This document shows, piece by piece, positions 25,472-36,522 of a stretch of 64,000 bases of DNA (its first letter is position 1; every line of letters starts with the position of its first letter). The position numbers were made by a program, and so were the translations under genes. Location of the stretch: NCBI RefSeq assembly GCF_965363235.1, contig NC_134839.1:95995743-96059742 (forward strand), written 5' to 3'. The notes beneath the pieces are model-generated. The model was not told where the DNA came from and searched no databases. It worked only from the letters and a program-made list of their open reading frames with translations. This DNA is from Mytilus galloprovincialis (taxonomy: Eukaryota; Mollusca; Bivalvia; Mytilida; Mytilidae).

Positions 25472-28400
25472 GTCTGATAGCGACAGTCATAGTGATTTTT
25501 AACTGTTTACATATCAGTCATATGCATATGGTCATTAAGACATTATTGATATCGAAAGTTTTCTCTTTCTCTCTCAAAATGTTTATTTTCAATACCAGAA
25601 GGTTGGCAATAAATCCAGCTTTTTAGAGTACTGCCTACCCCAGTGTGAATACTAGGGAAAACCTTGTTTTATCAATTCTACTAAGTACTTGGCAATAGTC
25701 CATATACAAATATTTCGGCTCAACAAATGGCCTTCTTCTGTGTCACAAGTTTTAACAGTATTTTGTTAAAACTTGTGACACAGAAGAAGGCCATTTGTTG
25801 AGCCGAAATATTTGTCAACACGATTTAATTACAACATTTTCGTATTATAACATCTTATATCAGTACTGTTGTGCAAATTTTTAGACTGATATAATTTTTT
25901 CCTTATCTGCATAGTATCGCCTATTCTAGACGATCCGGTACGTAGTAAATTTGCTGGTTGGTCCTTTTTATAGACTTTTGTATATATATATATATATATA
26001 TAGATATTCATTAAATAAAATAATAAAATAAGTAAAAAGTTAACAGTTCCATTCTATCGATTTCATCCTTCCATTGGGACTCTTCGGGATAACTGATGTA
26101 GTGTCGCTATAGGTGACGTCGTTAAGGAGGTTTATCATGTTTATGACATTCCGTCATTGTTCGTTATTAAAAGTTCTCTGGATTTAATTTTGATCGGAAC
26201 GTTGTTATGAAATAACGTTCCGTCTCTTTTCTATATGCTTCATCCTGTCTACATTTAAAAATAGGCATTATTTGAAAATGCTTTTTACCACAAATGTCAA
26301 GATGGGCACTAATTGGCGAATTTCTGTATTGTGGGTGTTTTATTTGTTCTTTGTGAACTCGCATCCGTTCACAGAGGCTATTCCCGGTCTGTCCAATATA
26401 ATTTTCGTGACAACCAGGACATGTGACGCAGTAAATAAGGTTTGTTGTCTTACAAGTCATATTGGCGTTCACATGAAATTTTTTGCCATCTTTAAATGAT
26501 TTCATTTTACCTGTTTCTAAATATTTCGTATCTTGGCCACAAACACGGCATCTTGAATCTCCACAAGACTTTATTTCAAAGTCATTAACCTTCGGTTCGA
26601 ACCGAGCTCTGGTTAAGTGTATAGAAAAGAGATGGAACGTTATTTCATAACAGCGTTCCGATCAAAATTAAATCCAGAGAACTTTTAATAACGAACAATG
26701 ACGGAACGTCATAAACCTCCTTAACGACGTCGCCTATAGCGACACTACATCAGTTATCCTGAAGAGTCCCAATGGAAGGATGAAATCGATAGAATGGAAC
26801 TGTTAACTTTTTACTTATTTTTTTATTTTATTTAATGAATATATATATCTACACATGTGAAAATTATTTTTTACGCCTATATATATATATATATATACAT
26901 ATCTTCGCTAGCCAAAAGTAATGATCTGCTCCTTGAGATAGAATTTCGGAGACGCAAAGTAATGATTTTCATAGCCATTGGTTCAAGTGTTAACTGGTTT
27001 TAGCCATTCAAAAAGTGCCTATAACATGATTACGTGAAAATGTAGGTAAACAATTGCCACATGCTAATTAGCTGCAAGAAATCTTTACCACTCGAAACAT
27101 ACAACAATATTAAGTGACAATTTAAATGTTCTTAATCAACTTATAGAAGTTCCTGTGTATGTTTCTGTTCCAATGTTAGAATATGTTATCGTATATTTTT
27201 AGTTTGTAAACTCTAGACACTGCCATGTTTCACCTCAATATTGAAAAGAGTTCAAGTGCTACCATTGGTCAAGAATAATACATTCAGAATGGATGTGACT
27301 TTAATCAACCAATAGATAGTGTAACATTGTTATCATAAATGTTGGCTTAATCTGCCAAGGGTGCATCTTCGCTAGCCAAGGGTTACTATCCACTCCCGTT
27401 CTCTTCACCCTTGGCGGATTGAGATAAAATTTCGGAGACACAAGGTCAGGATTTTTATTGGTTGCAGTCGAAACTCGCTGCATCCAATCAAAAAGCGCCA
27501 ATAACATGATCACGTGTAAATGTAGAAAGTGTTTGTAAACAATTGCCACATGTTTATTGTGCAACAAGTCTTTACATCCCTAAACATACGACCACATTCA
27601 GTGACAATTTTAATATTTTTAATCGACTAATAGAAGTTCCTTTGTATATTTCTTCCACAAGTGCATGAATTTTGATGAATATTTTCGTTTCCGGCTTAAC
27701 CAAGTGTGTAGAATCTAGACGCCACCTTGTTTTTACCTTCAAATTGAAGAGTTCAAGTGCTACCATTGGTCAAGAATAATGAATTCGGAATGGGCGTGAC
27801 TTTAATTTCCCGATAGATGGCGCAACATTGTTTTCACAAATGTTGGCTTAATCTGCCAAGGGTGAAGAGAACGGGAGTGGAGCGTAACCCTGGGCTAGTG
27901 AAGATGCCAAGGGTGGAGAGAAGGGGAGTGAATCGTAATCCTTTGCTAGCAAAGATAGACCATACAGGCCATTAAGAAAAAAATCTGGCCTGAATCTTTT
28001 AACCTCAAGGTTTACTAGAAGAAAAAAATATGGATGTATTTATATTTACATTTTGTACACCACAAAACTATTATTAAAGGGTAAAACATCATGAAAGGCA
28101 CACACAATTATTTAATAGGTCAGTATTTAAATTTTATTTAAACTTAATGTTGATTTGACATTGGTTTAAAAAGTGGTTTGACAACAATGCAACAATTAAT
28201 GTTTTTGATGATTTAATGTGCTTTAGATATACAAATGTTTACCTGTTGAAGAAATTTTATTTAAACATATACATGTAGAAGCAAAAGTACATAAGTATAA
28301 GTATTATATATACCATGCTATTTACGAGTTAACATATTTAACAACGAATCCGCAGGATGATATAAAAAAGAAGATGTGGTATGATTGCCAATGAGACAAC

Positions 28401-34400: not shown

Positions 34401-36522
34401 AAGGAACAATATAATGTAAGGTCATCGGTCCAAAATCCCTTGTACGTACACCAAAATGTCAAGAATAATCATTTTACCCATAGGTCTTTAGTTTCTGAAA
34501 CAGAGAATTGTAAGATAAACTTTTTGTTAATGATAGTTAATAAGATATTAATCTACCATATTTGATTATTTATGGATATCAGTTATTAAATTTCAGGATA
34601 AAAGAGAAGTAAGTAAAGAGGATGGATTAAAGTTTGCCAGAAAACACCATATGTTGTTCATCGAGGCCAGTGCCAAAACTAAAGAAGGTGTACAATGTGC
34701 ATTCGAAGAATTGGTAGAGAAGGTGAGAATAAGTTTGTTTTGTCTTTGTGATGATAAGTACTACATATTTATAAAATTGTGAATTTTAAGGGGAAAACCG
34801 ATGTTTCTAAAATGTTATATAAAAAAATAGTCTATAGATGGTGTTTTTGGTTTAAAAAGGTGCCTTTGATACTTTGAATTTTTCAATACTGGTATGTTGA
34901 ATGAACTTTAAAAATGTTGTCTTTGTTCTCAAGTTCCGTACAACTGAACAGAATGACATCATATTTAGTCAGTAGCATGACAAGTTCTGTACTACTGAAC
35001 AGAATGACATCATATTTAGTCAGTAGCATGACAAGTTCCGTACTACTGAACAGAATGACATCATATTTAGTCAGTAGCATGACAAGTTCCGTACTACTGA
35101 ACAGAATGACATCATATTTAGTCAGTAGCATGACAGTGGTGACGTACTACTGAACAGAATGACATCATATTTAGTCAGTAGCATGACAAGTTCCGTACTA
35201 CTGAACAGAATGACGTCATATTTAGTCAGTAGCATGACAAGTTCCGTACTACTGAACAGAATGACATCATATTTAGTCAGTAGCATGACAGTGGTGACGT
35301 ACTACTGAACAGAATGACATCATATTTAGTCAGTAGCATGACAAGTTCCGTACTACAGAATGCCATCATATTTAGTCAGTAGCATGACAAGTTCTGTACT
35401 ACAGAATGACATCATATTTAGTCAGTAGCATGACAAGTTCCGTACTACAGAATGACATCATATTTAGTCAGTAGCATGACAAGTTCCGTACTACAGAATG
35501 ACATCATATTTAGTCAGTAGCATGACAATACCGTACTACAGAATGACATCATATTTAGTCAGTAGCATGACAAGTTCCGTACTACAGAATGCCATCATAT
35601 TTAGTCAGTAGCATGACAAGTTCTGTACTACAGAATGACATCATATTTAGTCAGTAGCATGACAAGTTCCGTACTACAGAATGACATCATATTTAGTCAG
35701 TAGCATGACAAGTTCCGTACTACAGAATGACATCATATTTAGTCAGTAGCATGACAATACCGTACTACTGAACAGAATGACATCATATTTAGTCAGTAGC
35801 ACAACAAGTTCCGTACTACAGAATGACATCATATTTAGTCAGTAGCATGACAAGTTCCGTACTACAGAATGACATCATATTTAGTCAGTAGCATGACAAT
35901 ACCGTACTACTGAACAGAATGACATCATATTTAGTCAGTAGCATAACAAGTTCTGTACTACAGAATGACATCATATTTAGTCAGTAGCATTACAGTGGTG
36001 AGCTATAAATTTTGTGCACGTAAAGGATCTTTCAGATACCTATTTCCTTTTACAGATACTTTGAAATTTCAATATATGTTTTAAATGTTCTTAACATTTT
36101 TGAAAACCATTCTCAAGTACAATAACAGAATGACTTCACATTTTGTCAGCAGCTTGGCAGTAATGAGTTGAAACATGAGATCTTTTTCAGAATTTTCAGA
36201 CAACTACAACCTGTTTGTCAATATTTTTATAAGAGTTGGTGTATGTTTAACACTTCAACACATGCATTTTTGTTGATATCAGCTTGTCCGTCTAGTACAC
36301 AGCAGAGTACGTTCATGTGACAGTAGTACATTATAAAAAATGCATATAGTATTTGCTGTTTGACATTAAGCAGCTTTCAGTCTATCATGTAACAAATATG
36401 CCTTTTCCTTTCAGATTATACAGACGCCAGGACTTTGGGAATCAGACAGAAGAGGTTTGACATTAGAACGAGATGGAAACACACAACCAGCAGCATGTGG
36501 AGGTTACTGCTCCGTCATATGA
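25404..36522 (+). CDS. RAB18: Ras-related GTPase Rab18
   Basis: This is a small GTPase that acts at the ER and lipid droplets in membrane traffic. Seven exons, 25404-25471, 29165-29220, 31997-32058, 32827-32899, 33137-33255, 34597-34722 and 36415-36522, join in phase to 203 residues (human has 206). The nucleotide-binding motifs are all present: P-loop GESGVGKS (residues 15-22), switch I threonine in AATIG, DTAGQE (63-68), NKID (122-125) and EASAK (149-153). [18 protein letters not shown] and the effector region [18 protein letters not shown] are diagnostic of Rab18 over other Rabs. The C-terminus ACGGYCSVI keeps the prenylated cysteine in a CAAX-like end, as in human CSVL. The gene is intact; its introns carry many repeats. 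Confidence 0.97.
25706..25815. repeat. 52-bp perfect hairpin, 6-base loop
   Basis: The arms 25706-25757 and 25764-25815 are exact reverse complements around GTATTT. The arm starts ACAAATATTTCGGCTCAAC. A perfect inverted repeat of this length is recent or maintained. It lies about 190 bp left of the Penelope-like element and may be part of it. Confidence 0.9.
26044..26095 (-). ncRNA. Hammerhead ribozyme-like motif (broken core), left arm
   Basis: This is the mirror copy of the motif in the right arm, with the same stems and GAAA. The invariant core word reads CCGAAGA instead of CTGAAGA (position U4 changed to C), which should impair catalysis. Confidence 0.62.
26167..26640 (-). pseudogene. 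GIY-YIG endonuclease domain of a Penelope-like element (truncated)
   Basis: Read on the minus strand, a frame open from about 26640 ends at a stop beside 26167 (…RSKLNPENF). It contains a Cys motif ([12 protein letters not shown]), then [19 protein letters not shown], which carries the IYC…YIG pair of the GIY-YIG nuclease, and [14 protein letters not shown] with the conserved Arg and His. The Cys-rich linker before GIY-YIG is typical of the C-terminal part of Penelope-like polyproteins, which combine this nuclease with reverse transcriptase to nick target DNA. No in-frame reverse transcriptase precedes it, so the unit is a 5'-truncated remnant. Confidence 0.82.
26751..26802 (+). ncRNA. Hammerhead ribozyme-like motif (intact core), right arm
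   Basis: The core reads CTGAAGA (26759-26765), then stem II GTCC/GGAT closing an 8-base loop, then GAAA (26782-26785). Stem III is a minimal self-complementary ATCGAT (26785-26790) followed by A26791, the predicted cleavage position. Stem I is formed by TC/GA next to the core, an internal loop, and CAGTT (26751-26755) with AACTG (26798-26802). This is the type I hammerhead layout with a very short stem III, as described for Penelope-like elements. G·U closes stem II. Cleavage activity is untested. Confidence 0.72.
26915..27970. repeat. Divergent direct duplication (~440 bp units) in RAB18 intron 1
   Basis: Unit 1 runs from about 26930 to 27351 and unit 2 from about 27418 to 27857. Shared words include TTCAAGTGCTACCATTGGTC, AATAACATGATCACGTG (TATAACATGATTACGTG in unit 1), AAACAATTGCCACATG and ATGTTGGCTTAATCTGCC. 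A GCCAAGGGTG-type segment with GAGAACGGGAGTGG appears inverted between the units and direct after the second, suggesting transposon ends. No coding frame is shared. Confidence 0.7.
28370..28680 (-). repeat. GCCAATGAGACAACT-family repeat, copy in RAB18 intron 1
   Basis: This is the reverse-orientation relative of 20150-20470. It contains GATTGCCAATGAGACAAC, CAACAATGAGCAAAGCCCAT and CAGGCTCCTGACTTTG in mirrored order. Confidence 0.65.
29165..29220 (+). CDS. RAB18: RAB18 exon 2 (switch I)
   Basis: It completes the serine codon and encodes [18 protein letters not shown]. The donor is TTG|GTAAGA and it leaves a split glycine codon. Confidence 0.95.
29343..31287. repeat. TTTATACGACCGC-ended repeat with ~160 bp monomers, copy A
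   Basis: A perfect 13-bp inverted end, TTTATACGACCGC at 29343-29355 and its complement at 31275-31287, brackets a composite element in RAB18 intron 2. After the head comes a GTCGTC triplet tract, then at least four monomers spaced 159-161 bp that start GTTTTCGCACTATAACTTTA. Next are longer units with TTGGGGTTCTTTGATATGC, then a 35-bp satellite (30601-30836), then unique sequence. The monomer length recalls the ~160 bp repeats of bivalve pearl/BIV160-type elements; sequence identity to those is untested. Confidence 0.75.
30601..30836. repeat. 35-bp tandem satellite, about seven copies
   Basis: The unit spans GCAATAGCAAGAAATTTTCA and TTGCACAGTATTG. The junction TTGCACAGTATTGTGCAA is nearly self-complementary, so each unit border can form a hairpin. 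It lies inside the repeat at 29343-31287. Confidence 0.8.
31997..32058 (+). CDS. RAB18: RAB18 exon 3
   Basis: It encodes [20 protein letters not shown] then W. The acceptor is TCATAG and the exon ends in phase 0. Confidence 0.95.
32477..32685. mobile_element. TA-flanked MITE, copy 2 (RAB18 intron 3)
   Basis: The ends are AAATTCAGAAATTATTG and its complement, about 209 bp apart. The right end CTGTAAATTCAG is intact and followed by TA; the left end is slightly altered. It is the same family as 14098-14303. Confidence 0.75.
32827..32899 (+). CDS. RAB18: RAB18 exon 4 (DTAGQE)
   Basis: It encodes [20 protein letters not shown] then GVIL, the switch II region. The donor is TTG|GTAAGT. Confidence 0.96.
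33137..33255 (+). CDS. RAB18: RAB18 exon 5 (NKID)
   Basis: It encodes [20 protein letters not shown] through MLVGNKIDM. The acceptor is TTTTAG and the donor ATG|GTAAGT. Confidence 0.96.
33262..33915. repeat. Fragment of the TTTATACGACCGC-ended repeat in RAB18 intron 5
   Basis: Words such as AACCTTCCTTTTGTG, TATTGTCTGGAAACCAAATG and TTTGCAGTGGTAATAAA match the tail of the copy at 40.4-42.1 kb. The following TTATCTTCCTTTGTCTAGAA to CTTTACCGTTCAGTG matches 30842-30970 of copy A. It is degraded and non-coding. Confidence 0.6.
34597..34722 (+). CDS. RAB18: RAB18 exon 6 (SAK)
   Basis: This exon holds 42 codons, [18 protein letters not shown] through [20 protein letters not shown]. It is phase 0 at both ends. 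Confidence 0.96.
34927..35998. repeat. 51/46-bp satellite array in RAB18 intron 6, about 22 copies
   Basis: Two unit types differ by five bases: a 51-bp unit with GTACTACTGAACAGAATG and a 46-bp unit with GTACTACAGAATG. Both continue ATCATATTTAGTCAGTAGCA. Variants (TGCCATC, ACAATACCG, CAGTGGTGACG) recur in a fixed order, so there is higher-order structure. Because 51 is a multiple of three, long meaningless reading frames arise on both strands. One eroded unit lies at about 36117-36165. Confidence 0.95.
36415..36522 (+). CDS. RAB18: RAB18 last exon (prenylation tail)
   Basis: It encodes [20 protein letters not shown], then the variable tail ending [10 protein letters not shown] and TGA at 36520-36522. 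Confidence 0.95.
   Translation: MIQTPGLWESDRRGLTLERDGNTQPAACGGYCSVI

Follow-up and report, generated by a model that had tools for sequence, protein, structure and literature searches.

A minimal hammerhead ribozyme motif in a mirror-image copy of a Penelope-like element of Mytilus galloprovincialis

Why should a motif that reads as a hammerhead ribozyme (HHR) stand antisense to the gene of the element that carries it? The question is raised by positions 26751-26802, plus strand, of the 64,000-nucleotide stretch of Mytilus galloprovincialis DNA analysed here (the window), where an initial annotation had seen such a motif in an arm of a Penelope-like element (PLE). We consider it very probable that the motif is a minimal type I HHR of the pseudo-long terminal repeat (pLTR) of a PLE, which would act as a dimer, and that it lies in a dead mirror-image copy produced by two-sided initiation. 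Every letter and position of the annotated motif agrees with the sequence. CTGAAGA occupies 26759-26765, stem II pairs GTCC (26766-26769) with GGAT (26778-26781) around an 8-nt loop and starts with a G-U pair, and GAAA (26782-26785) runs into the stem III palindrome ATCGAT (26785-26790), followed by H17, A26791. In stem I, a C-G and a T-A pair adjoin the core, followed by an internal loop and by CAGTT (26751-26755) paired with AACTG (26798-26802). The type I core, CUGANGA ... GAAA ... UH, is present throughout, and cleavage is predicted after A26791. This sequence is also the majority of 49 aligned arms, taken from the loci collected by then with one partial arm excluded.

A strict hammerhead descriptor matches once in the whole window and twice in 150 first-order Markov windows searched on both strands; over 56 sources (330,555 bases) it gives 62 matches, almost all copies of one family, and none in the reversed sequences. 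Genome-wide (1.38 Gb searched; L numbers denote places fetched as relatives), the core pattern of the window family, F1, with stem III ATCGAT, occurs at 126 places compared to seven for the reversed pattern; 100 of the 126 places are listed, six of which fall outside F1. A pattern with stem III AGCGCT occurs at 211 places, compared to none when reversed, and comprises at least two further forms, F2 (CTGAAGA-TTGCCAGAAGGCAT), found in L035 downstream of another GIY-YIG open reading frame (ORF), and F3/F4 (CTGATGA-ACCGC...GCGGT, with variants). When the first stem III base of the F1-like core pattern was changed, just one match was found.

Across these families, paired positions change together. 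In an alignment of 14 examples, which we chose from the available loci (L064 was retained though a mirror junction cuts its stem I), 87.2% of hammerhead pairs are standard compared to 72.8% after shuffling, and the covariation score is 0.524 compared to 0.263; none of 500 shuffles reaches either value, and controls with slid partners stay at or below 0.152. Both sides have changed in 10 of the 14 hammerhead pairs (shuffled mean, 7.0; reached by 12 of 500 shuffles), and further pair types number 18 against 16.7 (reached by 153 of 500), which is not unusual. A compensatory change is found in each of the three helices, in stem III at a single variable pair (GC/UA), both stem III sequences of the set having been search-pattern sequences. 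The HHR fold of the window family, proposed in the initial annotation together with the judgement that chance was unlikely, is thus supported by cross-family covariation and by the genome-wide excess of the pattern.

What could speak for a hammerhead-like sequence arisen by chance is the Rfam result. The covariance-model search that the initial annotation had suggested as a check did not come out in its favour: Hammerhead_1 (RF00163) scores 15.9 bits on the motif (E, 0.86), below its gathering threshold of 34, in an alignment that does not use the correct stems II and III. L063 reaches 19.8 bits against the same threshold, and in the whole window no Rfam family reaches gathering. At the E-value threshold, L060-L063, L035, and window positions 25650-26240 match mainly microRNA-hairpin models that fit long palindromes. 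A gathering threshold is a database cut-off and lies outside the chemical definition of a type I hammerhead; since the score is below it, the hammerhead case depends on the relatives. The scarcity of descriptor matches in random windows and the cross-family covariation both oppose a chance origin, which we regard as extremely improbable.

The host is Penelope-like, as annotated. Pfam PF01541 (GIY-YIG) matches 26170-26661 on the minus strand at 6.6e-8, and the relative L024 has, in a single frame, a reverse transcriptase (RT) domain (RVT_1, 1.8e-8) upstream of the GIY-YIG endonuclease (EN; 9.8e-7); RT is absent from the truncated window copy. Two other relatives scanned, L014 and L031, have RT matches, that of L031 under the curated cut-off. 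In the window, inverted repeats join 25990-26141 with 26705-26856 (94%) and 26130-26240 with 26615-26725 (92%), and both arms carry a pLTR and an HHR with their 3' ends outward (Table 1), so that a PLE's pLTR, inverted pLTR, and optional tail are all found. The annotated "arm" is an element arm indeed; more exactly, the copy is a 5'-truncated mirror image and the arm its inverted pLTR, with an HHR antisense to the ORF. The PLE ORF on the minus strand and a second HHR in the left arm go beyond the initial annotation, and the core of this second HHR has a U4C change, by which it is probably impaired. The same change (window 26081-26087, minus strand, L009, and L052) occurs in exactly one arm of each of three mirror pairs. 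The exact ends of the insertion are uncertain because TA repeats flank both. Together, domain matches and layout support a 5'-truncated PLE copy as host, with RT and C-terminal GIY-YIG in its relative. A retrozyme identity was rejected for the window element, in which the arms are inverted around an EN remnant and direct tandem HHR repeats without an ORF were not found.

Table 1. Features of the mirror-image PLE copy in the window
Feature	Position	Strand	Basis
Whole mirror-image insertion, TA repeats at both ends	25979..26899		Sequence and inverted repeats
Left arm: end of EN ORF and 3' pLTR, without tail	25990..26240	-	Inverted repeat
Second HHR, left arm, sense with PLE ORF, core CCGAAGA (U4C)	26055..26087	-	Sequence, arm alignment
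Remnant GIY-YIG endonuclease, C-terminal part of PLE ORF	26170..26614	-	Pfam PF01541
Right arm: inverted end of EN ORF and pLTR	26615..26848	+	Inverted repeat
HHR stem I, 5' side: CAGTT, loop, TC	26751..26758	+	Sequence reading
HHR core, right arm: CTGAAGA, stem II, GAAA, loopless stem III ATCGAT, cleavage nucleotide	26759..26791	+	Sequence, 49-arm majority, covariation
HHR stem I, 3' side: GA, loop, AACTG	26792..26802	+	Sequence reading
PLE "tail" extension, right end only	26849..26877	+	Comparison with other copies

The mirror layout recurs throughout these families. Among HHR places no more than 6 kb apart, where "-+" means 3' ends outward, all 19 opposite-strand neighbours of F1 (94 family places among the 100 listed of 126) and all 18 of F2-F4 (100 listed of 211) are "-+" and none is "+-", which makes 37 of 37 opposed neighbours 3'-out among the matches listed; same-strand neighbours in these lists number five in F1 and one in F2-F4. 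The segment downstream of the HHR gives 15 of 15 "-+" in F1 (all 91 places) and 22 of 22 in F2 (100 listed of 125), in pairs that overlap the HHR-core set. The window's own mirror pair stands outside the HHR-core count, its left core being changed. In rotifer PLEs, the head-to-head arrangement is named as the commonest (PMC3846280; statements on papers cited by PMC number refer to the parts of their text that were available).

The tail follows a second rule. The fetched loci include 28 mirror pairs, 24 of which have both arms extending to the pLTR end, and in these the tail is found on the right only in 10, on the left only in nine, at neither end in four, and at both in one, so that 19 of 24 have exactly one tail (at a cut-off score of 16, which L032 barely reaches and 2 of 265 background stretches also reach). 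Three of the four tail-less pairs (L033, L040, and L042) appear to go back to a single event that was duplicated. L015, the pair with two tails, has a left tail that continues into the ORF start and hence is not an end, and none of the 19 single tails does so. Counted by event, a reduction from 24 to 21 that we judged after seeing the data, exactly one tail is found in 19 of 21 (probability 1.1e-4 under even chance per end). On single arms, the tail is present in 16 of 30. By eye, the F2 and F3 mini-mirrors L071 and L064 likewise have a tail at one end only. L033, L040, and L042 are three related copies of another mirror element, whose arms belong to two different subfamilies; both flanks are common to L033 and L040, and the left one also to L042. 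At 2736-3096 of L056, four short same-strand pLTR pieces are followed by one inverted piece.

These layout rules favour two-sided target-primed insertion. The protein of PAc, a PLE of Anolis, cuts and extends both target strands, and the tail is the stretch between its two RT start sites (PMC11167929). A PLE copy with a 5' leader would carry the HHR in sense, upstream of the ORF start, as in L015, where the order is pLTR, tail, ATG, the tail stretch sits between pLTR and ORF start, and the leader arm starts inside stem I. We infer that, in the window copy, reverse transcription began twice, once on each target strand, with the tail end as one starting point and the pLTR end as the other, and that the far ends of both products met within the endonuclease gene. 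Two starts at two sites on two target strands would explain the one-tail pattern. Alternatively, fold-back and self-priming of a single cDNA, which has been proposed for rotifer PLEs, may have produced both mirror arms, with the HHR merely carried along; self-priming on an antisense template is argued in PMC3846280. Locus-private variants are common to both arms in 5 of 28 mirror pairs (three variants in L047, two in L030, and one each in L027, L052, and L058), so each of these five pairs derives both its arms from a single source copy, which speaks against a simple model with two RNAs. The L047 arms differ at 0 of 222 positions, and the junctions of L061 and L064 are, by eye, near-perfect palindromes. 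The arms within a pair differ by 2.98% compared to 4.07% between loci (25 pairs). However, self-copying should give identical termini, which the one-tailed pairs do not have, and the arms of L033, L040, and L042 (probably one duplicated event) bear different subfamily markers, so that the shared-variant test has five concordant pairs and these discordant ones, while the remaining pairs say little. We hold a self-primed origin to be possible but rather unlikely, and lean towards two-sided priming on RNAs that were often of one source.

How might such a ribozyme act? Stem III, a loopless palindrome, cannot be closed in one RNA; folding should therefore require two RNAs, or two tandem pLTRs, that pair through it, and only then would the HHR work. 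In two-copy co-folding, the double hammerhead is the best predicted structure for F2 (-37.3, compared to -29.4 for two monomers) and for F3 (-33.5 compared to -26.8). Folding predicts that, in a full-length RNA of the mirror copy, one arm base-pairs with the other and so includes and hides the HHRs; little or no activity would thus be expected from the window locus. Ordinary PLE transcripts that dimerise are rather expected to be active, perhaps assisted by protein, as reported for the Anolis element. Minimal PLE hammerheads were reportedly described by Cervera and de la Pena in 2014 and by Lunse et al. in 2017. Minimal HHRs occur in pLTRs of PLEs of diverse animals and may cleave as dimers (PMC7761336), and they resemble the window HHR in being type I with almost no stem III and in lying in pLTRs. 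Compared with them by description only, the window HHR has as its own features stem III ATCGAT, stem II GTCC/GGAT, and its location in an inverted arm.

Several results, in addition to the low Rfam score, weigh against the explanation given at the outset. Two of the five covariation measures, both-side changes and further pair types, are not extreme, and since the 14 rows represent about three families, the independent changes are few. The dimer action proposed in the initial annotation is upheld by the unclosable stem III and by F2 and F3 but not by the folding of F1 itself, where the double HHR has -10.7 kcal/mol compared to -21.6 for the best dimer fold, and the best single fold is also non-hammerhead. 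One "+-" neighbour, L032, 4.8 kb apart, is found in the fetched loci outside the lists above; there, the distant minus arm duplicates the nearer one (96.5% over 800 nt). None of 78 places with the exact 16-base segment 3' of the cut has its 5' end exactly at the cut, in a small and biased sample mostly chosen for an intact HHR; nine loci (L074-L082) were not so chosen, among which one has its stop 28 nt upstream of the cut. Nine stops are listed in this test, of which four have causes other than truncation, L026 and L034 having single-base insertions and L010 and the right arm of L058 internal deletions; the remaining five are found 12 to 31 nt upstream of the cut. The left arm of L051 begins one base past the cut (pLTR position 179), a single case that the exact segment missed.

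Other points of this kind also bear on whether the HHR is a fossil, retained only as the copies are young and without a present catalytic role. PLE insertion in vitro does not require HHR cleavage, and HHR mutants still insert (PMC11167929). In F1 arms, 1.69% of cells are changed in the HHR and 1.63% in the pLTR directly ahead of it, so the HHR is conserved no better than this neighbour, which is weak evidence either way in a similarity-chosen sample; the share is higher at the end of the ORF (2.58%) and behind the HHR (3.57%). The U4C change in one arm here, in L009, and in L052 also fits a fossil. However, the core is kept and the stems are compensated across about three diverged families, the stems alone being independent evidence since the search pattern included the core, and we judge the fossil reading unlikely.

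Among known systems, PAc (Poseidon) of Anolis has in common with the mussel element RT with C-terminal GIY-YIG, a pLTR, a tail, and an HHR near the ORF start (PMC11167929), the mussel cut lying 114 nt upstream of the ATG in L015. The Penelope elements of Adineta vaga have, as here, inverted pLTRs, head-to-head copies, and an optional tail at one inverted pLTR, but the word "hammerhead" is absent from the available part of that account (PMC3846280), whereas the mussel arms carry an HHR. Mussel retrozymes share with the window a type I HHR and a mussel host (PMC7229834), and we found 220 places with the palindromic stem III ACGCGT, which we took as retrozymes on repeat length. Unlike the PLE HHRs, these (100 listed of 220) have four same-strand neighbours within 6 kb and no mirror pair. 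Two of the four same-strand pairs among the matches listed are 361 bp apart, within the 350-390 bp published for mussel retrozyme repeats (PMC7229834). At G000:C3:90225225-90225976, three retrozyme-type HHRs form a direct repeat, 361 bp apart.

Other GIY-YIG elements near copies, in L013, L015, L016, and L019, have a different motif, composed of C[CT]GANGA, an extra A before stem II, a hairpin, and GAAATAT, which was excluded from the HHR count. In the window, 25706-25815 is a perfect 52-bp inverted repeat with a 6-base loop and 95 genome matches (40 of 712 candidates scored), whose arm ends, GCCGAAATATTTGT, resemble this motif as found 3' of the GIY-YIG-type ORFs of the same four loci. At 34948-35994 lies a tandem array of about 22 copies of a 46-bp unit.

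The motif is ordinary in kind. What this analysis adds is layout statistics and cross-family covariation in one genome, without a claim of priority over print, and in this genome two PLE-type HHR patterns together match at over 300 places (126 and 211). The role of HHRs in PLEs has been termed a mystery (PMC7761336). It is conceivable, but very doubtful, that stem III, through its palindrome, serves as a dimer-initiation site and holds together two PLE RNAs of the same source, each target strand being primed on its own template. If so, mirror insertions would get one tailed and one tail-less end, and the hammerhead would be mainly an RNA-pairing device, with cleavage coupled to dimer formation. 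The 3'-out layout and the one-tail ends lead to specific expectations for an assay of two-sided insertion like that of the Anolis element, and these layout rules bear on how PLEs insert and make inverted copies.
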